From a virus, in the IMG/VR virus record IMGVR_UViG_3300036780_000136, positions 1 to 41,737 of that record: a DNA stretch of 41,737 nt; one strand, 5' to 3'. Below, one piece after another: positions 3,718-41,737 of the stretch. The position numbers and the translations under genes are program-made. Below the pieces are notes generated by a model. The model was not told the origin of the DNA, did not search any database, and saw nothing but the letters and a program-made list of their open reading frames with translations. Each line of letters begins with the position of its first letter. The first letter of the stretch is position 1.

Positions 3718-6700
3718 ATGTCCATGACCGTTACGGTCGACGGAACCGCCAGTAAAATCTCGAATGGGATCAACCTTCGCGTTCTGGTTCTGACGAACGT
3801 CGCCGCAACTCAGGACGGCGCGGCCGTCCACACTAACATCAACGAGCATCAGTCAATTACACCTACCGAGATCGGCAGCCGGATCTACGGTGCTGCTCTG
3901 AACACGAGCGCTAGTGGTTTTGCAGTTAATGGTATTACTACAGCGATCGACAACATCGTCGACTCGACTAACAGTGGGCGTTACGCGACTTGCAAGTCGT
4001 CAGCAGATACAACCGCACTCACTGTGGAAACCATCGGATACAGCAATGCTCGTAACACCGGTGGCATTTCGCTATTCGAGGTAAAGAATGACGGCGTCAA
4101 CTCTATCTTCGAGGATTCAAGCGGGCCTGCCGTCGCTACGGTCACGAACAATTCAGTAGTGACATCTGCGGCATTCACTCCGCCGCCGGGTGCATGGCTT
4201 GTTGCCCTGAGTTCTGGGATGTATGGTTCGCCTCCGTCTATCTCTGACACGATGGGTTTGTCCTGGACCACCAAGTCTTCCCTGCAAACCGGAAGCGGCG
4301 GTCAAGCGGTCATCATGATCGCAAGAGTCCCGAATATCAGCTCTGGTTCAGTTAGTCTAGGCAAGTTCGGATTGACGGGTAGTGGATCTGAGGAAGATTC
4401 TGGTTCAGGTTCGATCGACATGGGCAAGATGGGTTTGTCCGCGTCTGGAACCGAGACAGATGCAGCTAATGGCTCGGTTAATCTGCCTAAAATGAATTTG
4501 TCAGGAGCTGGCAATCAGCGGAATCCAGCCATCGGTTCGATCGACATGGGCAAGTTTGGTTTGTCTGCTGCCGGAACCGTAATGGAACTTGGCTCTGGTT
4601 CAGTTAGTCTAGGCAAGATGGGTTTTTCAGGTTCTGGTTCGGAAAGTGATTCTGGTTTCGGCCTCGTCACTCTCCCGAAGATGAAACTCGGCGGTGCAGG
4701 ACAAGAGTTTGATGTCGCTGCCGGCACGATCAGCATCCACAAACTAGGTCTTTCAGGTGCTGGTGACGAGTTTGATGTTGGCGGCGGTGTAGTCGCCGTG
4801 GGAAAACTTGGGCTGTCTGGGACTGGTAATCTAGGCATAGCTGGTTCCGGCGCAGCCGATCTAGGGAAGCTTGGTCTCTCAGGAACAGGCACCGAAATTG
4901 GCGAAGTCTCAGGCAGTGGCTCGGTTAAAATGCATAAGCCAAGATTGGCTGGTGCAGGACAAGAGTATAACTTCGCTGCTGGCATGATCAGCATGCACAA
5001 GATGAAATTGGCGGGGACCGGAAAAGAAGGAGATCCTGCCAGCGGCATAATAGCCATGCATAAGATGAAGCTCGGCGGTACCGGTGTCGAACTTCAGCTT
5101 ATATTTGGTACTGGGTCTGTGATTCTCAAGAAAGCTAAACTTGCAGGTACCGGCGCGGCGTCTTCAGTCGGGAGTGCCGGTGTAATTCTTCAGAACAGCT
5201 TTGAGGGAGGCGTTGACGCTGTCGATCTTGTAGGCGGCGCAACTGGAAATACTGGCGGAGCAGCCAGCGGTCCGATGCCACTTATAGGCCATACTGCTCA
5301 GCAAAAAGGCTACAATCTAAACGTTCTTAACTGGACACCTCCAGTACCAGTATCAAACGTAGCGATAAAAAATCTTACAGGACCAACTGTCAGTGTAGTT
5401 GTCACTGGTGGTACGGTGACTAATGTCGTTATCAACGGTTCTTCTGCAGGTTCAGGTCCAGGAACATATTCCGTCCCGAACAACCAGACGATCAAACTGG
5501 TTTACAGTTCTAAGCCCACATGGGCATGGACAGGAGTTAACCCAAGCTTTACCAGACTTCAGACTGCACAGTACGCTAACGGCATAGATATTGTAAAAGG
5601 TGGCATAACTTACCCAAGCCCTGTTAGTGGGCTAAACGGTGCACCAGCTCTGGTTGTCCAGAAATGGTTTGTCCCAGAAGGAAGTTATTACACAACACAG
5701 TCGGCAATACCAAATGATCTTACAGACTTGATCGACAACGGCTGTAAGATTGTGCTTTGCATCAAACCGGGTTCTTCCACAGCCCCATTTCAGCAAACTG
5801 CTGCTGACCGCCAGAATTTCGCCAAAACGGTCTATGCATTTAGTTCTTACGCAGCATCAAAATCGGCTCCTGCCCCCATCATCGTCATGGACTCCGAAGC
5901 AAATGCAAACGGTGACTTTGACGTAACGGGCAAAGCCAGAGCTAATCCAGGACAAGCGTCTGCGAATGCTTATATTTCCTGGTATAACTATTACGCTCCA
6001 GCAGCAGAGAACCCGACCGCATACGTTTCCTCAATTCCGGCTGGCAGTGGTCTGGATCCAGGAATCGATTTCGCTACCAATCACAGTAGTGGCGGTAACT
6101 ATCAGCAGTTTTACCCGGGCGACACTCATGTTCGTTTTGTAGGCGGCGACGCTTACGGAAACTTGTACATTAATGACGATCCCTGGTACATAGACCAGCC
6201 GAACGGCATGGCTACTGTAGCGCTGACTGATCTGGCTGACAACAACGCCGTTCATGGACCAGTTCCGTTCTGGATATTTGAATGGGGAGCAGACCAGCAA
6301 GGCGTCAGCGATCCAGTAACTCCCGAAGAGTGGCAGAAGTGGTCTCAGTACCTTATCGGTGTATTCTCTACCAGGGCTAAAGCGGGGAAACCTGCAGGCG
6401 GCATCATCTGGTACTCAGGAACAAACTATCCTGAGTATAATCTGCTCCCTGGCGATCAGCCTGGTGGAATTGGATTCAGTCTTATTTCCGGTCTGAACAA
6501 TGTCAAGAGCTCGCTGCAAGGCGGCTCCGGTGCATATTTCGATAACGTTCACCGCGGTACAGGTGCAACGATTCAGTTCGATAACAGTCACCCTGCCCGA
6601 ACGCCGATGGCTGCCAGGTTCATTACGGATTCTTCAGGCGAGATCGCTTGGATTTCCTGGAAAGATTCGCTCAACGGAACTGCAGAAAAGCTTTACTTCC

Positions 6701-7437
6701 GGATTTACGCATATTTCGATGCCCTGCCTTCTGCGACAACCATTATCGGCCAGTTCCTGACTGATAGCGGTGCTGTTGCAGCAAGTCTGCACCTGTCGAC
6801 AGCTGGTCTTATTCAGTTCAACGACGGTGTGGGCGGTACTGGCCAGATCGGTACGGCTGTTCCTATCCGTACAGGTCACTGGTGGCGTGTAGAAGGCTTT
6901 GTCTCAAGTGGAAGCGGTTCGGGACAGCTTGAGTTCAAATTGTTCAACAATGCTGATTCTTTTGTTCCAGATGATATTCAGACATCAACAGCTACATTTA
7001 ACACCGGTGCTGATATGGCCAGTGTTCAGTTCGGTATCAGTTCTTCGAGTGTTGCGAACGCGGCATTTTCGCTGGATGATCTGGGTGTTTCCACCTTTGG
7101 CTACATGGGACCGACGATTCTTGGCACAGACCAGGGAACCGGTACCGTAGACATGGGCAAGATAGGGCTAACTGGTGCTGGTATATCGACACGAGTTGGC
7201 TCTGGCAGCGTCAATCTCCCCAAACTGGGTTTGACTGGTTCTGGGCTTGAAAAGAACATCGGAACAGGTCATATTTCCCTGAAGAAACCTTCGCTTTGGG
7301 GTGCTACACTGACGCCCGTGTCTGTTTGCCTTAACGGCCGGCTCGTTCCGTGCAGTGTGAAAGCACGAGTTAATGGTGAATGGGTTACAACGGTCCCGAA
7401 AGTCAGAATTGCTGGATCGTGGGTTCCGATTAGCTGA
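3718..7437 (+). CDS. Large minor tail protein / host-binding fibre with hydrolase-like domain (1239 aa)
   Basis: Order of domains: 1-207 beta-rich N-terminus; 208-485 thirteen copies of a 21-residue repeat with consensus GSGSVxLGKMGLSGxG; 545-605 a small beta module (GGTVTNVVINGSSAGSG, KPTWAW); 610-925 a glycoside-hydrolase-like TIM-barrel region with acidic candidates D725/E727 in VMDSEA and E855 in IFEWGAD; 934-1131 a LamG or concanavalin-like jelly roll; 1140-1198 three more repeats; and a C-terminal 40 residues (LNGRLVPCSVKARVNGEW) resembling ends of other actinophage minor tail proteins. It probably forms a tail fibre or spike that binds or trims surface polysaccharide. Hydrolase activity is inferred from fold-like spacing only. 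The start is ATG 3718 with GAGGAGGG. Confidence 0.72.
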   Translation: MSMTVTVDGTASKISNGINLRVLVLTNVAATQDGAAVHTNINEHQSITPTEIGSRIYGAALNTSASGFAVNGITTAIDNIVDSTNSGRYATCKSSADTTALTVETIGYSNARNTGGISLFEVKNDGVNSIFEDSSGPAVATVTNNSVVTSAAFTPPPGAWLVALSSGMYGSPPSISDTMGLSWTTKSSLQTGSGGQAVIMIARVPNISSGSVSLGKFGLTGSGSEEDSGSGSIDMGKMGLSASGTETDAANGSVNLPKMNLSGAGNQRNPAIGSIDMGKFGLSAAGTVMELGSGSVSLGKMGFSGSGSESDSGFGLVTLPKMKLGGAGQEFDVAAGTISIHKLGLSGAGDEFDVGGGVVAVGKLGLSGTGNLGIAGSGAADLGKLGLSGTGTEIGEVSGSGSVKMHKPRLAGAGQEYNFAAGMISMHKMKLAGTGKEGDPASGIIAMHKMKLGGTGVELQLIFGTGSVILKKAKLAGTGAASSVGSAGVILQNSFEGGVDAVDLVGGATGNTGGAASGPMPLIGHTAQQKGYNLNVLNWTPPVPVSNVAIKNLTGPTVSVVVTGGTVTNVVINGSSAGSGPGTYSVPNNQTIKLVYSSKPTWAWTGVNPSFTRLQTAQYANGIDIVKGGITYPSPVSGLNGAPALVVQKWFVPEGSYYTTQSAIPNDLTDLIDNGCKIVLCIKPGSSTAPFQQTAADRQNFAKTVYAFSSYAASKSAPAPIIVMDSEANANGDFDVTGKARANPGQASANAYISWYNYYAPAAENPTAYVSSIPAGSGLDPGIDFATNHSSGGNYQQFYPGDTHVRFVGGDAYGNLYINDDPWYIDQPNGMATVALTDLADNNAVHGPVPFWIFEWGADQQGVSDPVTPEEWQKWSQYLIGVFSTRAKAGKPAGGIIWYSGTNYPEYNLLPGDQPGGIGFSLISGLNNVKSSLQGGSGAYFDNVHRGTGATIQFDNSHPARTPMAARFITDSSGEIAWISWKDSLNGTAEKLYFRIYAYFDALPSATTIIGQFLTDSGAVAASLHLSTAGLIQFNDGVGGTGQIGTAVPIRTGHWWRVEGFVSSGSGSGQLEFKLFNNADSFVPDDIQTSTATFNTGADMASVQFGISSSSVANAAFSLDDLGVSTFGYMGPTILGTDQGTGTVDMGKIGLTGAGISTRVGSGSVNLPKLGLTGSGLEKNIGTGHISLKKPSLWGATLTPVSVCLNGRLVPCSVKARVNGEWVTTVPKVRIAGSWVPIS
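4339..5175 (+). repeat. 63-nt coding repeat array, 13 copies
   Basis: Thirteen consecutive copies of a 63-base unit encode GSGSV(S/D)(L/M)GKMGLSGxGxExD. They differ by point changes, with paired variants LPK, MHK and LGK in the central tripeptide. Three further copies lie at about 7135-7310 in the same gene. Units stay in frame with almost constant length. Confidence 0.85.
7135..7312 (+). repeat. Second block of the minor-tail repeat, 3 copies
   Basis: Three more 21-residue units (GTGTVDMGKIGLTGAG, GSGSVNLPKLGLTGSG, GTGHISLKKPSLWG) of the array at 4339-5175. They are separated from it by about 650 residues that hold the hydrolase-like and LamG-like domains. Confidence 0.8.
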
Positions 7438-14776: not shown

Positions 14777-15646
14777 GTGACCGCAGTTGTCTGGGACGCC
14801 ATCGGCGATAAGAAGTTCGAAACCGGTGTCGACCACTGCGTGCTCTATCCGTTGAACTCGGAAACCGGCGACTACGACACGGGTTTCGCCTGGAACGGCA
14901 TCACCGCCGTGAACGAGAAGCCCGATGGCGCGGCTGCCAATCCGCAGTACGCGGATAACATCAAGTATCTCAACTTGCTGTCGGCGGAGACATTCGGCGG
15001 CACGATCGAGGCCTTCATCTATCCGGACGAATTCGGTGCCTGCGATGGCACGCAGACTCCAATCTCGGGTGTGGTTGTCGGTCAGCAGACTCGGCAGACT
15101 TTCGGTCTGTCGTACCGCACCGTCGAGGGAAATGATCTGTCTTCTGTCGCGGGCTACAAGATCCATCTCGTGTATGGAGCGCTCGCGGCTCCATCGGAGA
15201 AGGACTACGGCACAATCAATGACTCACCGGCCGCAGTCCAGTTCTCGTGGGATTTCACATGCACGGCGGTGCCGGTGACAGACATGCTGCCGACATGCCT
15301 GGTCGTCATCGATTCAACGAAGGTCGACTCCGGAGCGCTCAGCGACCTCCTGGAGCTGCTCTACGGCACCGAAGGCACCGATCCGTCGCTGCCGAGCCCA
15401 GACGATGTCATTGCTCTCTTCAGCGGAAGCGTCACAGTCACCGCAGAGCCGCCGGCGCCCACGATCTCGTCTGATGTCATCACGATTCCGTCTTCGACGG
15501 GTGTCGTGTACACCATCGGCGGCGTCGTCAAGGCCGCTGGCACGCTGCCGGCGATCACCGAAGACACTGTCGTGAAGGCCCACCCGGCTACTGGGTACGT
15601 CTTCCCGGAGGTTTCGGTCGACGAGTGGCTGATGAAGCACACCTGA
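14777..15646 (+). CDS. Major tail tube protein (289 aa)
   Basis: The protein that stacks as rings around the tape measure to form the tail. Recognisable words are WDAIGDKKFETGVDHCVLYP, GFAWNGITAVNEKPDGAAAN, TFGGTIEAFIYPDEF, TFGLSYRT and FSWDFTCTAVPV. About 220 residues of tube domain are followed by a C-terminal beta module (TISSDVITIPSSTGVVYTIG) ending in DEWLMKHT, similar in layout to the end of the capsid protein. The codons are G/C-biased at third positions, unlike its two paralogues at 16225 and 17157, so this is probably the abundant one. The start is GTG 14777 with AGGAGG at ideal spacing. Confidence 0.9.
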   Translation: MTAVVWDAIGDKKFETGVDHCVLYPLNSETGDYDTGFAWNGITAVNEKPDGAAANPQYADNIKYLNLLSAETFGGTIEAFIYPDEFGACDGTQTPISGVVVGQQTRQTFGLSYRTVEGNDLSSVAGYKIHLVYGALAAPSEKDYGTINDSPAAVQFSWDFTCTAVPVTDMLPTCLVVIDSTKVDSGALSDLLELLYGTEGTDPSLPSPDDVIALFSGSVTVTAEPPAPTISSDVITIPSSTGVVYTIGGVVKAAGTLPAITEDTVVKAHPATGYVFPEVSVDEWLMKHT

Positions 15647-16224: not shown

Positions 16225-17145
16225 ATGCCAAGAGTTACCTGGAATGATTCTGGATCGCGTCTTTATCACGCCGGAATTGATCGTGGGATGCTTTACACAG
16301 ACGAAGCATCCGTTCCGTGGCCTGGTCTTTCGAGCGTGACTGAATCCCCGGACGGCGGTACGGCAAATCCGTTTTACCTTGACGGAAGAAAGATTCTCAA
16401 TACGACGACTGGCCAGGATTTCGGTGCCACGATCGCCGCATTCGGTGCACCACCTGAGTTTGCATCTTGCGCCGGTCAGGCACGGATATCGACCGGTCTT
16501 TATGCGGCAGATCAGCCAAAAGAATCGTTCGGCTTTTCGTACCGGACGATGATAGGCAGCGATACTGCAGGCATTCAGTTCGCGTACAAGGTACACGTCG
16601 TTTACAACGCGACGGCCAAGATTGCAGACTATACACATACGACAGACTCAGCAAGTCCGTCAGTCAGTGCTTACTCGTGGGATATTTCAACATTCCCGGT
16701 GAGTATCAAGGGCTACAAGCCGACGTCGCACTTCATATTTGACACTAGGTTCGTCCAGCCATACATAATCGGCCGGCTCGAGGCGATTTTGTACGGTGAC
16801 GAGAACGACGATCCGCGAATGCCTACTCCAGAGGAGATTGTTACATTGCTGACAAATCCTCCAGGAACTACTTGGTGGGATCTTACTGGTCTCGACGATT
16901 TCCCGTCGCAAGCCCTCGTTGGCGACATGGGTGTCGATTTCTCCACCGACGATCTTTATGCAGACGTGGACGAGAACACGAATGCTTACTGGTGGGATCT
17001 GACTGGTGGTCAGGACTTCCCGTCTGACGCTGTTATGGGTGACTGGGGATTCGACACAATCACCGGTGAAGTCTGGCTGTACGTTTCCGGCGGAAGCGTC
17101 GATATTCCGAAATTCAGTCTGGACGGTTCCGGGAATGTAGTCTGA
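16225..17145 (+). CDS. Tail tube paralogue 2 with duplicated C-terminal repeat (306 aa)
   Basis: Residues 1-210 align with the tail tube protein at 14777: TWNDSGSRLYHAGIDRGMLY, VPWPGLSSVTESPDGGTANP, FGATIAAFGAPPEF, FGFSYRTMIG, YSWDISTFPVSI. The C-terminus differs: two tandem copies of WWDLTG-x(3)-DFPS-x-A-x-x-GD-x-G, at W217 and W256 (39-residue period). These are followed by SGGSVDIPKFSLDGSGN, which matches the repeat of the large minor tail protein. Codons are less biased than in the main tail tube gene, suggesting a minor component, perhaps a ring at one end of the tube or a decoration. The start is ATG 16225 after GAGGGT, one base beyond the previous stop. Confidence 0.75.
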   Translation: MPRVTWNDSGSRLYHAGIDRGMLYTDEASVPWPGLSSVTESPDGGTANPFYLDGRKILNTTTGQDFGATIAAFGAPPEFASCAGQARISTGLYAADQPKESFGFSYRTMIGSDTAGIQFAYKVHVVYNATAKIADYTHTTDSASPSVSAYSWDISTFPVSIKGYKPTSHFIFDTRFVQPYIIGRLEAILYGDENDDPRMPTPEEIVTLLTNPPGTTWWDLTGLDDFPSQALVGDMGVDFSTDDLYADVDENTNAYWWDLTGGQDFPSDAVMGDWGFDTITGEVWLYVSGGSVDIPKFSLDGSGNVV

Positions 17146-27807: not shown

Positions 27808-27996
27808 ATGGCCACCACCGAAGTCACGATCGAGGAAGAGACCCCCACCATCAGCCGCAAGCGCAAGGTTGCCGACGCCGTCACCACGACGTCCGTCACC
27901 ATCGCGCTCAGTCTGGTGGCTCAGGTCCTCATCCAGAAGGTCGTTACGAAGGTCCACACCACCATCGTCCCCGAAGACGCCACCAACAACGAGTAA
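27808..27996 (+). CDS. Small single-helix membrane protein (62 aa)
   Basis: Not recognised. An acidic start ATTEVTIEEETP and a basic patch SRKRK precede a hydrophobic helix VTIALSLVAQVLIQ. The end is polar (HTTIVPEDATNNE). TTAGGAGAGGC lies before ATG 27808. Codons are noticeably richer in C/G than in the neighbouring small genes, which may mean strong expression or a separate origin. Promoter copy 3 drives it and the terminator at 28003-28035 ends it. Confidence 0.65.
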   Translation: MATTEVTIEEETPTISRKRKVADAVTTTSVTIALSLVAQVLIQKVVTKVHTTIVPEDATNNE

Positions 27997-28002
27997 AGCA
28001 CC

Positions 28003-28035
28003 GAGCCCTGTAACAAGGGCTCATGCTTTTCTTTC
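28003..28035 (+). terminator. Terminator after the third single-gene unit
   Basis: GAGCCC (28003-28008) and GGGCTC (28017-28022) around an 8-nt loop, then ATGC TTTTCTTTC. Same stem sequence as the terminator at 27722. The next gene begins only 20 bases later with no promoter of its own, so it depends on read-through or antitermination. Confidence 0.68.
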
Positions 28036-28054
28036 TGCATCATTAGGAGAGATC

Positions 28055-28807
28055 ATGTCCGGATCGTCAAGGCTGGATTCTGTCAGCCGTATCCTCAGGA
28101 ACAATTCGCCAACAATCCTTTCAGGCGCAGCCATCGCCGGCGTGATCACCACCGCAGTTCTGACCGCCAAGGCTGCCACCAAAGTCTACGACAAGCAGCT
28201 CAGCGATGACGCCCCGCCGATCGAGTCCAAAAAGGATGTTGTCCAGGCTTACTGGACATATTTCATTCCTGCGGGCATCTCAGGTGCCGCTACGATCGCC
28301 TGCATCGCAGGGGCTAACCAGATCGGCCTGCGCCGGAATGCCGCGCTCCTCGGCGCTTACACGCTCGCTGACACCGCGTTCAGGGAGTACAAAGAAGAAG
28401 TCCTGACCCAAATCGGCAGGACGAAAGAGCAGAAAGTCCGCGACGAGATAGCCAGCAAGCAGATGGCTGAAAACCCGGTGAGCACCAGCACGGTGATCAT
28501 CGCCGGAAGAGGTGATCAGCTCTGCTATGACACCCTCACGGGTCGCTACTTTCAGAGTGACATCGAGGAAATCCGGCAGGCGGCAAACAAACTCAACGCC
28601 GGCATCATCGGCGGCGACATGTATGCCAGTCAGAACGAGTTTTACGGATTGCTGGGGCTGGCTCCAGTCACTATTGGCGATGAGCTGGGATGGAATCTCG
28701 AGAATCTCATCGATCTCCTGTTCTCCTCGCATCTCGCCGATGACGGGCGTCCATGTCTCGCAATCAAGTACAGGAACCTTCCCCGAAAGGATTATGGGAA
28801 GTTCTAG
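28055..28807 (+). CDS. DUF6353-like membrane protein, paralogue A (250 aa)
   Basis: Two N-terminal membrane segments: TILSGAAIAGVITTAVLTAK and YFIPAGISGAATIACIAGA. The soluble C-terminus contains RRNAALLGAYTLADTAFREY, then KVRDEIASKQMAENP and a later ASQNEFYGLLGL and SHLADDGRPCLAI. The order (NSPTILSG...AATKVYD...YFIPA...RNAALLGAY) matches the DUF6353 family of phage membrane proteins as I recall it; the function is unknown. Start ATG 28055 with TAGGAGAGATC. Longer frame from 27869 is open but overlaps the previous gene. A related gene is at 31880. Confidence 0.7.
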   Translation: MSGSSRLDSVSRILRNNSPTILSGAAIAGVITTAVLTAKAATKVYDKQLSDDAPPIESKKDVVQAYWTYFIPAGISGAATIACIAGANQIGLRRNAALLGAYTLADTAFREYKEEVLTQIGRTKEQKVRDEIASKQMAENPVSTSTVIIAGRGDQLCYDTLTGRYFQSDIEEIRQAANKLNAGIIGGDMYASQNEFYGLLGLAPVTIGDELGWNLENLIDLLFSSHLADDGRPCLAIKYRNLPRKDYGKF

Positions 28808-31557: not shown

Positions 31558-31859
31558 ACGTATACTTGTCGGCAGAAAGCAAACATGCTGTACGGGTGAT
31601 AATCACGAATCAGATCAGGAAAGCCAAGGTGTCATTTCTGGATTTGCTCGAAATAGAAGTCGACTGCAAGCCTGAAGTGTTCGTCAAATCTGGAGACGAT
31701 ATCCGGCTGCAGGTACCGCTCAAAAAGCATATTCGTTTCGCCCGGATTTCCTACCGCGACAAAGATGGAGTCGAGCTCCTGTGGTATCAGCTCGACGTAA
31801 TTCCGGGCGATAAAATAAAAACACACGTGCCCACACCAAAAGATTTGTGCCTCATTTAA
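31554..31859 (+). CDS. Unknown protein (101 aa)
   Basis: Beta-rich with a short helical part; MNVYLSAESKHAVRVIITNQ, FLDLLEIEVDCKPEVFVKSG, LQVPLKKHIRFARISYRDKD, YQLDVIPGDKIKTHVP. No signal peptide or membrane segment. ATG 31554 overlaps the previous stop (ATGA), so it is translationally coupled to the anchored protein. I do not recognise it; an intracellular partner of the gene before it is possible. Confidence 0.55.
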   Translation: MNVYLSAESKHAVRVIITNQIRKAKVSFLDLLEIEVDCKPEVFVKSGDDIRLQVPLKKHIRFARISYRDKDGVELLWYQLDVIPGDKIKTHVPTPKDLCLI

Positions 31860-31879
31860 CCCAGGACTCAGGAGAGGTA

Positions 31880-32752
31880 ATGAAACTCGCACCAGGTATG
31901 ACCCGGGCGGTCGGCTCGGGCAAATTCTTCCTGCACAAGAACGCGCCAACCATTCTGACTGGTGCGGGAGTCATCGGCTTCGCGGTCACCACTGCGCTCA
32001 CCATCAAGGCAACTGCCAAGGCCGTGGATGTGCTGCCTGAGATCTCCAAGGACGTCAAGGAAGTCAAAACGGCGTACAGCGAGCAAACCGCTGATAGGAC
32101 CGACTATCAGCGCGATCTCGCGAGGGTCTATCTCAAGAGCAGTCTGAAGCTGACCGAAATCTACTGGCCGGTCCTCGCGTCAGGATCGGCGTCGATCGTC
32201 TGTGTGCTCGCCGGTCACGGCATGATGATGAAGCGCCAGGCGAGTCTCGTCGCAGCGTACACAGCTCTGGATGCAGGCTACAAGGCATATCGGCGTCGTG
32301 TGGCGGAGGTGATCGGCGACGACAAGGAACGTGAGCTTTACAGCCGTGCGAAGACGCTCAAGGAAGACATCGACGCACAGGGCGAAGCGTGTGAGATCAT
32401 CGACCTGGACGACGTGCTGCCGTCGCCATATTCGAGATTCTTCGATGAAACTTCGGCGAACTGGACCAAAACTCCGGAGTACAATCTCATGTTCTTGCGG
32501 GCGCAGCAGCAGTGGGCAAATGACCGGCTCACAGCCTACGGCTATCTGTTTCTAAACGAAGTCTATGAGGCGCTGGGTCTCGAACGGAGTCAGGCCGGCC
32601 AGACGGTCGGATGGCGTCTGCACGGTGACGGTGATGACTTCGTGGATTTCGGCTTGTACACGATCGGCGATGAGTGCAATCGCGCTTTCGTAAACGGTCT
32701 AGAGCACACGGTTCTCCTCGACTTCAATGTCGATGGGCCGATTACGATCTGA
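31880..32752 (+). CDS. DUF6353-like membrane protein, paralogue B (290 aa)
   Basis: Same layout as the gene at 28055: KNAPTILTGAGVIGFAVTTA as the first membrane segment, IYWPVLASGSASIVCVLAGH as the second, then RQASLVAAYTALDAGYKAYR. The soluble C-terminus has SPYSRFFDETSANWTKTPEY, YGYLFLNEVYEALGLERSQA and NRAFVNGLEHTVLLDFNVDG. It is larger than paralogue A by about 40 residues. ATG 31880 follows AGGAGAGG. The following gene overlaps its stop by one base. Confidence 0.7.
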   Translation: MKLAPGMTRAVGSGKFFLHKNAPTILTGAGVIGFAVTTALTIKATAKAVDVLPEISKDVKEVKTAYSEQTADRTDYQRDLARVYLKSSLKLTEIYWPVLASGSASIVCVLAGHGMMMKRQASLVAAYTALDAGYKAYRRRVAEVIGDDKERELYSRAKTLKEDIDAQGEACEIIDLDDVLPSPYSRFFDETSANWTKTPEYNLMFLRAQQQWANDRLTAYGYLFLNEVYEALGLERSQAGQTVGWRLHGDGDDFVDFGLYTIGDECNRAFVNGLEHTVLLDFNVDGPITI

Positions 32753-33471
32753 TGAAGATCCAGACCCTCAGAGGAGGGAAAATCGATGCCATTTCTCTTG
32801 CTGCCGGAGTCGTCGGCGGTCTGCTTGCTGGCGGCGGTGCAGGTTATTTTCTGTGCCGTCGTCATCTGGCTGCTTCTTACGCAGAGCGACTTGATGCCGA
32901 AGTCGCGACAATCAAGGCCGACTACAACGACCGGCTCAAAGGATCATACCGGCAACTCGGAACTCCTTTTGCTGGACCCACAGACGGCGATCTGGCCGGT
33001 GAAAGCGATCACACAGACTACCGGAAAGCCGCCGTGGGAACTGACGATCCCGGAATCCAGCCAGGGGATGTCGCCATCGATCCAGAAGAAGGATTGCCCA
33101 GCGAAAACGAGCTTGCTGTCCGTGAGGCCGAAGCTGCAGAACAGAACCTTTTCGTTAACGAGGCAAAGCCTTCACGCTCTGGCAAACCTCGCCGTATTTC
33201 GGCCGAAGCATTCGCCGAAGCACCGCCGGAGTCGGCGAACATCACCATCACTTATTACGCAGCAGATAAGGTCCTTGTCGACGACCACGATCAGCCTATA
33301 CAGAACATCGGCCGAACGGTTGGAAAACTGGATGCTCTCAGCTTCGGCGGTATATCCGGTGACCCACATATCTGCTACGTACACAATCCGGAACTAGACG
33401 TCTTCTTCGAGATCGTGCTCGACAACCGTTCGTATGCGGAAGTCGTTCTCAACTACGGGAGACCGGTATGA
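32752..33471 (+). CDS. Membrane-anchored protein with C-terminal beta domain (239 aa)
   Basis: A single N-terminal helix (ISLAAGVVGGLLAGGGAGYF) precedes a coiled or disordered acidic middle (DDPGIQPGDVAIDPEEG, AVREAEAAEQNLF) and a C-terminal domain of about 75 residues: ITITYYAADKVLVDDHDQPI, QNIGRTVGKLDALSFGGISG and NPELDVFFEIVLDNRSYAEV. Genes of this build often sit beside DUF6353 genes in phages, and here the one-base overlap (TGATG at 32752) joins them. The pair may act together at the membrane. The function is unknown. Confidence 0.6.
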   Translation: MKIQTLRGGKIDAISLAAGVVGGLLAGGGAGYFLCRRHLAASYAERLDAEVATIKADYNDRLKGSYRQLGTPFAGPTDGDLAGESDHTDYRKAAVGTDDPGIQPGDVAIDPEEGLPSENELAVREAEAAEQNLFVNEAKPSRSGKPRRISAEAFAEAPPESANITITYYAADKVLVDDHDQPIQNIGRTVGKLDALSFGGISGDPHICYVHNPELDVFFEIVLDNRSYAEVVLNYGRPV

Positions 33472-34028
33472 CAGCACTCGTGGACGCAGACGAGCTCTTC
33501 AAGACGAGATACTTCGCCTGGCTTTATGGGTACATCCTCCCCGGCGTTCCGCATGTGCCTGCCGGCAATTACACATATGTCTGCCAGCGGATGCACATGA
33601 AAGTGTTCAAAGCTCTTGTGCCGCACGACAGCAACCGGGTCGGGGATGCGGCCGAACTCCGTGATGAGTTCGCCTCGGAAAAACAGCTGGACGAGATCGG
33701 CAGAGTTGACCTGCTGCTTCCGGACGCAACGATTCTCGAAGTGCTTATCGCACTGGCAAAACGTGCCAACTTCATGATCGAGCGCACCGAGATGCAGTGG
33801 TTCCTGATTTTCCTGGACAATTTGCATCTTGCAGAGCTCACAGACGACGCCTGCGTACCTGGGATCGAAACCACAATCGACAGGCGTCTCAACCGGTTCA
33901 ACGACAGATACTATGATGCGCGGGGACACGGTGGTTTGTTCCCGCTCAACAGCACCGACAAAGACCAGAGGCATGTCGAGCTCTGGTACCAGATGGGTGC
34001 GTTCATGACCGAAAACAACATGTACTAG
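33468..34028 (+). CDS. Conserved phage protein before the polymerase (186 aa)
   Basis: LFKTRYFAWLYGYILPG, FVPHDSNRVGDAAELRDEFA-like words, TILEVLIALAKRANFMIERT, EMQWFLIFLDNLHLAELTDD and RHVELWYQMGAFMTENNMY. The RxSLLEVLxALAxR ... WFxxFLxNLxL ... FPLxxxxKDQRxVELWYQM arrangement recurs in hypothetical proteins beside DNA polymerase genes in siphophages. It is soluble and helical. The start ATG 33468 overlaps the previous stop as ATGA. A role in replication is suggested only by neighbourhood. Confidence 0.68.
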   Translation: MTALVDADELFKTRYFAWLYGYILPGVPHVPAGNYTYVCQRMHMKVFKALVPHDSNRVGDAAELRDEFASEKQLDEIGRVDLLLPDATILEVLIALAKRANFMIERTEMQWFLIFLDNLHLAELTDDACVPGIETTIDRRLNRFNDRYYDARGHGGLFPLNSTDKDQRHVELWYQMGAFMTENNMY

Positions 34029-34050: not shown

Positions 34051-37000
34051 ATGGACTTTTTTCAGGTCAGGGAACGAGAGACGAAGACCGGGATAGAACT
34101 TTACCCAGATTTCGTCGTCCGCAAATCCTCAGACCTGATCGTTCATGGCAGTTCCTTCCATGCGGTGTGGGATGAGGAGGCTGGACTGTGGAGCACTGAC
34201 GAGTTCGCAGTCCAGCGCCTCGTTGACAAAGCTCTGTACGCCCGTGCTGAGAAGATTGACGCGCCGGTTACAGTCAGGACCATGAGCAGCTTCAAAAGCA
34301 ACTCGTGGAAAGACTTCAAAAGTTATGTGACGAACTTGCCTAGTTCGGACGCACAACTCGACGGAGTTCTGGCTTTCGCAGACACGCCGCCAAAGAAAGG
34401 AGAATTCAGCTCAAAGAAACTGCCTTACGAACTGAAAGCCGGGCCGGTCGTTGCGTACGAGCAGCTGATAAATGTGCTCTACGATCCTGACGAAAGGGAA
34501 AAACTTGAGTGGGCTATCGGATCAATCATCGCCGGCGATGGAAAGCGGATCCAGAAATTCTTCGTTTTGTACGGTGACGCTGGTACCGGCAAAGGAACCT
34601 TTCTCGACATACTCGCTCAGCTTTTCCAAGGATATGTCGCTGTATTCGACGCAAAAGCGATCACCGGATCAGCTAATGCGTTTGCAACGGAAGCGTTCAG
34701 TGGCAATCCACTTGTGGCGATTCAGCATGACGGTGACCTTTCACGGATTGAGGACAACACAAGACTCAACTCGATCGTCTCGCACGAAGAGATCATCATC
34801 AACGGCAAGTACCGTACGCCGTACACAGCGCGGATCAACGCGCTCCTCTTCATCGGAACGAATCAAGCCGTCAAGATCACAGACGCCAGATCAGGAATCA
34901 TCCGGCGGCTGATCGACGTCCATCCGACCGGGAACACCGTTGATCCAGTGGAATATGAGGCACTCAAGCAAAGCCTGAGTTTTGAGCTCGGTGCTATTGC
35001 CCATCACTGCCTGCAGGTCTACCGGAGTAGTGGGCCAAATCGCTACTCCGGCTACCGGCCGATAGACATGATCATCAGGACAGACATGATCTACAACTTC
35101 CTGATGGAACATTTCGCGCTGTTCAAGAACCAGAACGGGACAACGCTGAAGCAGGCATGGGCACTCTACAAGACATTCTGTGACGAAGGCAGCTTCGACT
35201 GGCGTCTTAACCAGAGCCGGTTCAGGGACGAACTCCGGAACTACTTCGACGAGTTCGTCCATCGTGGGCGCATTGAGAATACCCAGGTCACGAACCAGTA
35301 CATTGGGTTCAAGACCGGGAAATTCGGTGTTGCTCAGCTTCCAGATCCGCCACCACCGTCTATCGCACTGAACGAAGACGTCTCGCTGCTGGACGATCTT
35401 CTTGCCCAGCAGCCCGCGCAATACGCGAGCAGTGAGGGAACGCCCAGTAAGTTCTGGGCTAAGGTCCAGACGAAACTTTCAGATCTTGACCCAAGTCAGC
35501 TCCATTATGTCAAATTGCCCCTGCAATACATAGTCATCGATTTCGATTTGCGGGACGATGACGGTCAGAAAAATCTGGCTCTGAATCTTGAGGCTGCAAG
35601 TAGGTGGCCTCCGACATACGCCGAACTTAGTCAGAGCGGTGCAGGCATCCATCTTCATTACGTCTACGACGGAGACGTTTCCGCACTGAGTCACGATTAC
35701 GCACCGGGAATCGAGGTCAAGACATTCCCGGACGACGCTTCACTAAGGCGACGTCTGACCCACTGCAGCACGACTCCGATCGCGACGCTGAACAGCGGTC
35801 TGCCACTGAAGGAGAGGCGTGTGCTTGACTCTGACACGATGAAGAGCGAAAGGGCTCTTCGCGACCTGATCGAGAGAAACCTCCGGAAAGAAATTCATCC
35901 GGGCACGAAACCAAGTGTGGACTTCATCTGGAAAATCCTTGAGGATGCGTGGAACTCAGGGATGAACTACGACATAACCGACATGCGCGGCCGTGTTCTG
36001 GCCTTTGCAAACGGATCGACTAACCAGTCGGTCTACTGCGTCAAGCAGGTTCTGGCGATGCAGTTCGCGTCTGCTGATGCAACCAAACTGTCACCCGAGG
36101 TAAACCCGGCAGACGAACGGCTCGTGTTCTTCGACGCAGAGGTTTACCCGAATCTCTTCGTCGTCTGCTGGAAATACCGTGGCGACGGAACAGTCGTGCG
36201 CATGGTCAATCCGTCACCTCAGGACATTGAAGAGCTGACCAAATACCGCCTTGTAGGATTCAACAACCGGCGGTATGACAACCACATCTTTTACGCCCGG
36301 ATAATGGGCTATAGCGAACTAGACTTGTTCAAGCTAAGTCAGCGCATTGTGGAAAACGAGAAAAGCTGCATGTTCGGCGACGCGTACAACTTGTCGTGGG
36401 CCGACATCTGGGACTTTTCCATAGTCAAACACGGTCTCAAGAGATTCCAGATTGAACTGGGTCTCAACCATCTGGAAATCGGCATCCCGTGGGATCAGCC
36501 GGTGCCCGACGACATGATCGGGAAGGTCGTCGACTACTGCGCGAACGATGTCATCACGACGGAAGCAGTGTTCGAGGACCGGATCGGCGATTACAACGCG
36601 CGGTGCATTCTTGCACAACTCAGTGGGTTGCTTGTGAATGACACAACGCAGCGTCACACAGCAAAGATTATCTTTGGCAATGAGCGCAATCCGCAAGAGA
36701 AATTTGTCTATCCGGATCTCTCCAAGGAGTTCCCTGGATACAAGTACGAGGCTGGTGTCAGCACGTACAGAGATGAGGTTACTGGTGAAGGCGGATATGT
36801 ATACTCCGAGCCCGGAATGTACTTGGACGTCGCGGTCCTTGACGTGGCATCAATGCATCCCACATCGATCAAGGTTCTGGATCTGTTTGGTCCTTATACG
36901 AAGGTGTATAACAATCTCACGTCAGCGCGACTTGCGATCAAACGTGGCGATTACGCTGAAGCTAACGGAATGCTCGGTGGCTCCGGCGCAGCGTATACAT

Positions 37001-37755
37001 CTTCAGACAGTGACGCGAAAGCTCTCTCCGATGCGCTCAAGATCGTCATCAACATCGTCTACGGGCTCACCGGCGCCAGCTTCCCGAACCCCTTCAGGGA
37101 TGTAAGGAACGTAGACAACGTCGCGGCAAAACGCGGCGCTTTGTTCATGATTGACCTGAAACATGCAGTGCAGGATAAGGGCTTCCAGGTGGTGCACATC
37201 AAAACGGATTCGATCAAGATTCCTGGTGCAACGCAGGAGATCATCGACTTCGTTACCAACTTCGGCAGCAAATACGGTTACACATTCGAGCACGAGACGA
37301 CGTACAAAAAGTTCTGTCTTGTGAACGATGCCGTGTATGTTGCCATGAGACCAGACGGAACGTGGACTGCAACGGGCGCACAGTTCCAGCATCCATACGT
37401 CTTCAAGACTCTGTTCAGTGGGGAGGCAATCGACTTCGATGACTACTGCGAAACCAAAACGGTCACGGCAGCGACGATGTATCTCGATTTTGGGGATGGC
37501 GACCCGCATTTCGTCGGCCGTGCTGGGAGTTTTGTTCCAGTCAAAGAGGGAACTGGAGGAGCTGTCCTGCTTCGTGGAAAAGACGGAAAATTCCACGCAG
37601 TCACCGGAACTAAGGGATACTTCTGGAAAGAAGCAATAGCAGTTCGTGATCTCGGGCTGGAAGACACGATCGATATGAACTACTTCCGCAGACTCGTGGA
37701 CACGGCGATCAAAGCCATCTCGAAGTTTGGCGACATCGAGCAGTTCAGGGGATAG
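34051..37755 (+). CDS. Helicase-primase-DNA polymerase fusion (1234 aa)
   Basis: Three replication activities in one chain. Residues 140-360: SF3/D5-type helicase with Walker A GDAGTGKGT (175-183), Walker B VAIQHDGD (222-229) and sensor N271. Residues 465-600: archaeo-eukaryotic primase (PrimPol-like) features, D497-x-D499 in VIDFDLRD, SGAGIHLH (529-536, H534) and E555 in IEVK. Residues 690-840: 3'-5' exonuclease, D695/E697, N739-D743 and Y829-x3-D833. Residues 930-1060: family B polymerase, motif A DVASMHP (D931), motif B K997-x3-N1001-x2-YG, motif C KTDS (D1053). The start is ATG 34051 after GGGAGGGG. No frameshift interrupts it. Fusion of all three modules suggests a nearly self-contained replisome. 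The primase part is the least certain. Confidence 0.85.
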   Translation: MDFFQVRERETKTGIELYPDFVVRKSSDLIVHGSSFHAVWDEEAGLWSTDEFAVQRLVDKALYARAEKIDAPVTVRTMSSFKSNSWKDFKSYVTNLPSSDAQLDGVLAFADTPPKKGEFSSKKLPYELKAGPVVAYEQLINVLYDPDEREKLEWAIGSIIAGDGKRIQKFFVLYGDAGTGKGTFLDILAQLFQGYVAVFDAKAITGSANAFATEAFSGNPLVAIQHDGDLSRIEDNTRLNSIVSHEEIIINGKYRTPYTARINALLFIGTNQAVKITDARSGIIRRLIDVHPTGNTVDPVEYEALKQSLSFELGAIAHHCLQVYRSSGPNRYSGYRPIDMIIRTDMIYNFLMEHFALFKNQNGTTLKQAWALYKTFCDEGSFDWRLNQSRFRDELRNYFDEFVHRGRIENTQVTNQYIGFKTGKFGVAQLPDPPPPSIALNEDVSLLDDLLAQQPAQYASSEGTPSKFWAKVQTKLSDLDPSQLHYVKLPLQYIVIDFDLRDDDGQKNLALNLEAASRWPPTYAELSQSGAGIHLHYVYDGDVSALSHDYAPGIEVKTFPDDASLRRRLTHCSTTPIATLNSGLPLKERRVLDSDTMKSERALRDLIERNLRKEIHPGTKPSVDFIWKILEDAWNSGMNYDITDMRGRVLAFANGSTNQSVYCVKQVLAMQFASADATKLSPEVNPADERLVFFDAEVYPNLFVVCWKYRGDGTVVRMVNPSPQDIEELTKYRLVGFNNRRYDNHIFYARIMGYSELDLFKLSQRIVENEKSCMFGDAYNLSWADIWDFSIVKHGLKRFQIELGLNHLEIGIPWDQPVPDDMIGKVVDYCANDVITTEAVFEDRIGDYNARCILAQLSGLLVNDTTQRHTAKIIFGNERNPQEKFVYPDLSKEFPGYKYEAGVSTYRDEVTGEGGYVYSEPGMYLDVAVLDVASMHPTSIKVLDLFGPYTKVYNNLTSARLAIKRGDYAEANGMLGGSGAAYTSSDSDAKALSDALKIVINIVYGLTGASFPNPFRDVRNVDNVAAKRGALFMIDLKHAVQDKGFQVVHIKTDSIKIPGATQEIIDFVTNFGSKYGYTFEHETTYKKFCLVNDAVYVAMRPDGTWTATGAQFQHPYVFKTLFSGEAIDFDDYCETKTVTAATMYLDFGDGDPHFVGRAGSFVPVKEGTGGAVLLRGKDGKFHAVTGTKGYFWKEAIAVRDLGLEDTIDMNYFRRLVDTAIKAISKFGDIEQFRG

Positions 37756-41643: not shown

Positions 41644-41737
41644 TGTTCACCAATCCACCACTTATGCCACATCAGGCAAAAGCAGTTAAGAAGATCCGCA
41701 ACGGCTGCGTTCTGAAAGGAGGTGTCGGAACAGGAAA
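41643..41737 (+). CDS. Helicase N-terminus, cut by the window end
   Basis: ATG 41643 overlaps the preceding stop. The visible residues FTNPPLMPHQAKAVKKIRNG and CVLKGGVGTGK combine a Q-motif-like start (PHQAKAV) with a Walker A (GGVGTGK), the pattern at the start of SNF2- and DEAD-type phage helicases. Only 31 codons are present; the rest lies to the right. Confidence 0.72.
   Translation, partial: MFTNPPLMPHQAKAVKKIRNGCVLKGGVGTG

Follow-up and report, generated by a model that had tools for sequence, protein, structure and literature searches.

A viral gene that very probably encodes a HelPrimPolB replicase of the type of GP55 from Lactococcus phage 1706

Introduction

The fusion of a helicase, a primase and a family B DNA polymerase (PolB) in a single polypeptide has been described before. 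Kazlauskas et al. 2020 (PMC7544198) give this architecture the name HelPrimPolB, describe it as an SF3 helicase and a primase fused N-terminal to a polymerase with a divergent motif C, assign the group to the EpsilonN-like clade of family B polymerases, and cite a first description of the helicase-primase-polymerase fusion from 2016. GP55 of Lactococcus phage 1706, a 'four-in-one replicase' purified and characterised in 2025, combines a UTP/dTTP-dependent helicase, an RNA primase, a polymerase and a 3'-5' exonuclease, and replicates ssM13 DNA without an added primer (PMC12205980). GP55 is mainly a dimer by SEC-MALS and requires K189 for helicase, D509 for primase, D712 and E714 for exonuclease and D949 for polymerase activity, the substitution D509A abolishing priming (PMC12205980). 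Its alpha-helical domain (aHD), which is reported to be unrelated to the helix bundle of the NrS-1 and pRN1 primase-polymerases, is also needed for priming, and Y655 and F667 within it were reported to be essential (PMC12205980).

The primase-polymerases of NrS-1 and pRN1 (ORF904) appear to have the AEP catalytic fold in common with the protein that we describe here. The helicase of NrS-1 is of the SF3 type and lies in the same protein as the AEP, as it does in our protein. In both NrS-1 and pRN1 the helicase is C-terminal to the AEP, and neither is known to contain a family B polymerase.

Here we analysed a window of DNA that corresponds to a complete virus record of 41,737 bases (IMGVR_UViG_3300036780_000136), in which a preliminary description, made from the sequence alone, had pointed to helicase, primase and polymerase motifs within one long open reading frame (ORF). 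The architecture has already been published together with its name and its biochemistry, and the family occurs in hundreds of phages, although the preliminary description was made unaware that the family had been named and characterised. We find that this gene very probably encodes a GP55-type HelPrimPolB replicase.

Results

The replicase ORF spans 1234 codons from its ATG to its stop codon and contains no internal stop (Table 1). Its start codon is supported by residues M1-D2-F3, which are identical throughout a five-member alignment (A1). The observation that helicase, primase and polymerase motifs share one unbroken frame is thereby confirmed, and every motif was found at the residue that had been listed for it. 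The order of the three modules was likewise given correctly; to call it unusual was too strong, since this order is fixed across a large family. Indeed, the 'DNA polymerase' family PHROG 4210 matches residues 1-1232 (E=0) and 153 relatives encode the protein as a single ORF, so the motifs are not a product of chance.

Table 1. Coordinates of the replicase, its domains, neighbouring genes and the insertions found in split relatives. Positions are those of the window unless a locus is named.
Feature	Position	Strand	Evidence
Very probable HelPrimPolB-type multidomain replicase	34051..37755	+	single ORF, 1234 aa
N-terminal domain ahead of helicase, residues 1-135	34051..34455	+	confident predicted fold
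Predicted SF3/D5-type helicase, residues 136-425	34456..35325	+	Pfam, PHROG, PDB profile, conservation
Predicted AEP (PriS-like) primase domain, residues 446-598	35386..35844	+	AlphaFold2, Foldseek, conservation
Alpha-helical domain, counterpart of GP55 aHD, residues 599-674	35845..36072	+	model, residue mapping
3'-5' proofreading exonuclease, residues 689-870	36115..36660	+	PHROG, conservation, Foldseek
Family B polymerase core, residues 871-1234	36661..37752	+	PHROG, PDB profile, Foldseek, conservation
DUF6353 protein, conserved upstream neighbour	31847..32752	+	PF19880 E=1.2e-64
Conserved gene directly upstream of replicase, PHROG 4678	33468..34028	+	PHROG
Phage ssDNA-binding / annealing protein, homologue of GP66 (phage 1706)	38608..39222	+	PF24083 E=9e-66, PHROG 4787
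Helicase gene, first codons only (as gene 50 of phage RosaAsantewaa)	41661..41735	+	tblastn
Insert in split relative (approximate)	L153:8712-9866		
Insert in split relative (approximate)	L160:2270-2853		
Insert in split relative (approximate)	L176:4432-5010		

The replicase aligns end to end with GP55 at 39% identity, and the two proteins have in common their domain order, their length class and the aHD. GP55 is the longer at 1317 aa, a difference that is due in part to insertions near the C-terminus, and it is an assayed enzyme whereas the replicase is known here from its sequence and from models. Identity to GP55 is 26% in the N-terminal domain, 31% in the helicase and 41-47% in the others. 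All seven of the GP55 residues that were mapped (K189, D509, Y655, F667, D712, E714 and D949) are identical in the replicase, where they correspond to K181, D499, Y640, F652, D695, E697 and D931. Full-length homologues 48-57% identical to the replicase are encoded by phages of Gordonia, Arthrobacter, Streptomyces and Rhodococcus (for example, ReqiPepy6 gp072); their usual annotation as 'DNA primase/polymerase' leaves out the helicase, and they otherwise differ by sequence divergence only.

When phage records were searched by tblastn, 410 were matched, of which 252 cover at least 80% of the replicase, with a best identity of 57%; among the matches listed, most carry the same 'DNA primase/polymerase' annotation. 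A scan of viral contigs with the replicase sequence alone returned no relatives, and the same scan repeated with an alignment as query gave 80 of 475. Polymerases of Enterococcus phages show 21-24% identity in an alignment that begins only at residue 625, and the one that was inspected is a separate PolB gene of 763 aa.

The predicted helicase, whose assignment rests on sequence, carries Walker A (G175-T183), a Walker B region (222-229), the sensor-1 residue N271 and R285/R286, and the sequence features of an SF3 helicase are present (G180-K181-x-T183, D227, which is shared by 130 of 132 relatives, N271 and R285/R286). It matches DUF5906 in Pfam (E=1.3e-12), a domain found in 34 of the 34 members of the family alignment, as well as phage primase-helicase PHROGs (down to E=9e-24). 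A family profile run against the PDB connects the same part to 7ola (DNA primase) and to 6k9c and 6k9e (NrS-1 primase), a PDB primase chain being matched over residues 38 to 429. The Walker B region reads AIQHDGD in the replicase and IDADSD in GP55, and because of this difference and the low helicase identity the nucleotide preference may differ from that of GP55.

Downstream of the helicase all three catalytic motifs of an AEP are present (D497-F-D499, S527..H534 and E555). A Pfam search of the replicase matched no AEP model, and PHROG primase matches at residues 490-558 were weak. A profile of the AEP region found no AEP among PDB sequences, and a comparison of folds was therefore needed. 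An AlphaFold2 model of residues 436-690 (mean pLDDT 89.7) was compared with the PDB by Foldseek, which returned ten matches with E<1e-3, every one of them an NrS-1 or pRN1 primase-polymerase at a probability of 1.00. The TM-scores against solved AEPs are low, about 0.3-0.37, since the catalytic core agrees with them and the overall size and the helical part do not, so that the result supports an AEP core rather than a close structural match. The proposal that residues 465-600 form an AEP is thus borne out at the level of predicted structure, in that the modelled region significantly matches only AEP primase-polymerases.

The preliminary description had overlooked the helical domain that follows the primase, the counterpart of which is required by GP55 for priming. 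The model places four helices here (600-611, 619-635, 643-654 and 660-669), in the position that is occupied in AEPs by PriL or a helix-bundle accessory domain, and the two essential tyrosine and phenylalanine residues of the GP55 aHD are found within it as Y640 and F652.

The remainder of the protein has the complete motif set of a family B polymerase with proofreading, comprising the exonuclease motifs I-III (D695/E697, Y742-D743 and Y829/D833) and the polymerase motifs A (D931), B (K997/Y1004) and C (K-T-D1053-S). Motif C lacks its first aspartate and so departs from the two-aspartate form, in a protein that shares the domain order of the HelPrimPolB group; this KTDS is identical in all 132 relatives and occurs likewise in GP55, an active enzyme. 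An AlphaFold2 model of residues 1-1200 had a mean pLDDT of 84.5 and a pTM of 0.47, which makes the relative positions of its domains unreliable, and among its listed Foldseek matches 50 of 50 were family B polymerases.

To describe conservation we started from 154 sequences, of which 132 remained once redundancy was removed at 90% identity; these are 38-73% identical to the replicase. Across all 132 there was no change in K181, T183, N271, R285 and R286 of the helicase, in D497, D499, S527, H534 and E555 of the primase, in D695, E697, D743 and D833 of the exonuclease, or in D931, Y1004 and D1053 of the polymerase. Similarly, F652 of the aHD was unchanged in all of them and Y640 in 127, the remaining sequences having F. 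For pairs of relatives in which dS was unsaturated, dN/dS was about 0.01-0.11 in nearly every domain; the most diverged pair, the window replicase and L007, reached values up to 0.15 (exonuclease 0.12), and two linkers gave 0.10-1.1, mostly above the domain values. Every domain is therefore under purifying selection, which is as strong on the helicase, AEP and aHD as on the polymerase.

The single frame also held up among relatives, being intact in 153 of the 165 loci that were fetched; six others were cut by contig ends and six were internally broken, and a seventh internal break (L176) was found later. These breaks sit among intact relatives in the tree, and six of the seven are confined to a stretch of some 55 residues, immediately ahead of motif A or at it. 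For example, in the related loci L153, L160 and L176 the replicase is broken after residue 891. The insert in L153 and L160 holds an ORF with NUMOD4 and I-HmuI-like (HNH-type endonuclease) domains, and the second half of the replicase restarts there at an ATG of its own; the insert of L176 resembles theirs on reading of its sequence. In the tree the intact L117 clusters with L160 and L176, and so there at least the split looks derived. In Bifidobacterium phage BitterVaud1 (L004) the break lies at 918-922, where an insert (L004:5878-6549) contains an ORF of 213 aa that matches nothing in Pfam. A search with Rfam detected neither a group I intron nor any other RNA in L153, L160, L004 or the 41,737-base record, which suggests that the insertions are free-standing genes and not introns. 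Of the three other breaks, the in-frame amber codon (TAG, L014:7916-7918) directly after residue 898 of L014 coincides with the joint of the split genes and could be either a natural split or an error of sequencing, the frameshift near 939-946 in L147 may be a sequencing error, and in L156 a stop lies within the helicase part.

The surroundings of GP55 hold an ssDNA-binding protein, a DUF6353 gene and a second helicase gene, as do those of the replicase. The GP66 sequence of phage 1706 found the window's ssDNA-binding protein gene by tblastn (E=1.5e-28). Because the record stops (41661-41737) within the first codons of the downstream helicase, the contig is incomplete on the right; in the relative L007, VRR-nuclease and RecB-like genes come after the corresponding helicase gene. 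Upstream of the replicase lie two conserved genes without an assigned function in addition to the DUF6353 gene. DUF6353 is also found in phage 1706 (gp51) and in RosaAsantewaa (gene 36), and it is kept near the HelPrimPolB genes of actinobacterial and lactococcal phages. A second copy (PF19880) lies at 27869-28807 (+) of the window.

Elsewhere in the window, the structural region contains a 1239-aa ORF (3718-7437, +) for which PHROG gave no match, Pfam none above the cut-off and tblastn none in 50,697 phage records. Two genes at 14777-15646 and 16225-17145 (+) both match the major tail protein family PHROG 2645.

Discussion

The idea that one protein could open, prime and copy the phage DNA is supported by this comparison, as the replicase would have the activity set of GP55 and conserves its essential residues. 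The replicase is expected to carry out the same activities, to form dimers and to use UTP or dTTP, because GP55, its assayed homologue, does so. The helicase domain would part the strands and lend the polymerase strand-displacement power, the AEP together with the aHD would deposit short RNA primers, and the family B polymerase would extend them under proofreading by its exonuclease. Together with the product of the nearby ssDNA-binding protein gene, the replicase would make up a minimal phage replisome.

Were the helicase or the primase module a dead structural remnant, the protein would act only as a polymerase, and a Walker B region unlike that of GP55 and a motif C that is one aspartate short could be read in this way. 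However, the active GP55 also has KTDS, the invariant helicase and primase residues given above, like the aspartates of the exonuclease and polymerase, do not vary in any of the 132 relatives, and purifying selection on the helicase, AEP and aHD matches that on the polymerase; we regard a dead module as very improbable. Still less credible is that residues 446-598 adopt some other fold with a chance D-x-D and S-x-G-x-H. The lack of a Pfam AEP match, and of any AEP from the region's profile among PDB sequences, would fit such a fold, but the significant Foldseek matches are exclusively to NrS-1 and pRN1, weak PHROG primase matches cover the same stretch, and GP55 loses priming when the counterpart of D499 is replaced in D509A (PMC12205980).

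An assembly artefact that joined a helicase-primase gene to a separate polymerase gene deserves equally little credence. A few relatives do have the protein in two genes, split near residues 891-922, yet these split forms are nested among intact ones in the tree, and the artefact was already refuted by the 153 single full-length ORFs, which come from independent phages and contigs. The reading that we prefer thus remains a GP55-type replicase in one chain.

How far its branch has moved from GP55 is a more speculative matter. It is possible, if rather doubtful, that the helicase (AIQHDGD) and primase of the window's branch use nucleotides and priming sites unlike those of GP55, for which the priming site is CCAAC, and that some relatives work as two-subunit replicases. 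The latter may consist of a helicase-primase-exonuclease subunit and a polymerase palm subunit, with a joint just before motif A that has been colonised by HNH genes in one lineage.

What is known of HelPrimPolB-type systems is unchanged by this finding, which brings one more phage lineage into the replicase family to which the assayed GP55 belongs. The design with four activities is strongly conserved, as relatives with no more than 38% identity still have the same catalytic residues, and enzymes of this kind could replicate DNA with no primer supplied. The split relatives mark the joint at which the enzyme may divide into two working subunits and, if it can be so divided, the coupling of helicase-primase to polymerase becomes testable.
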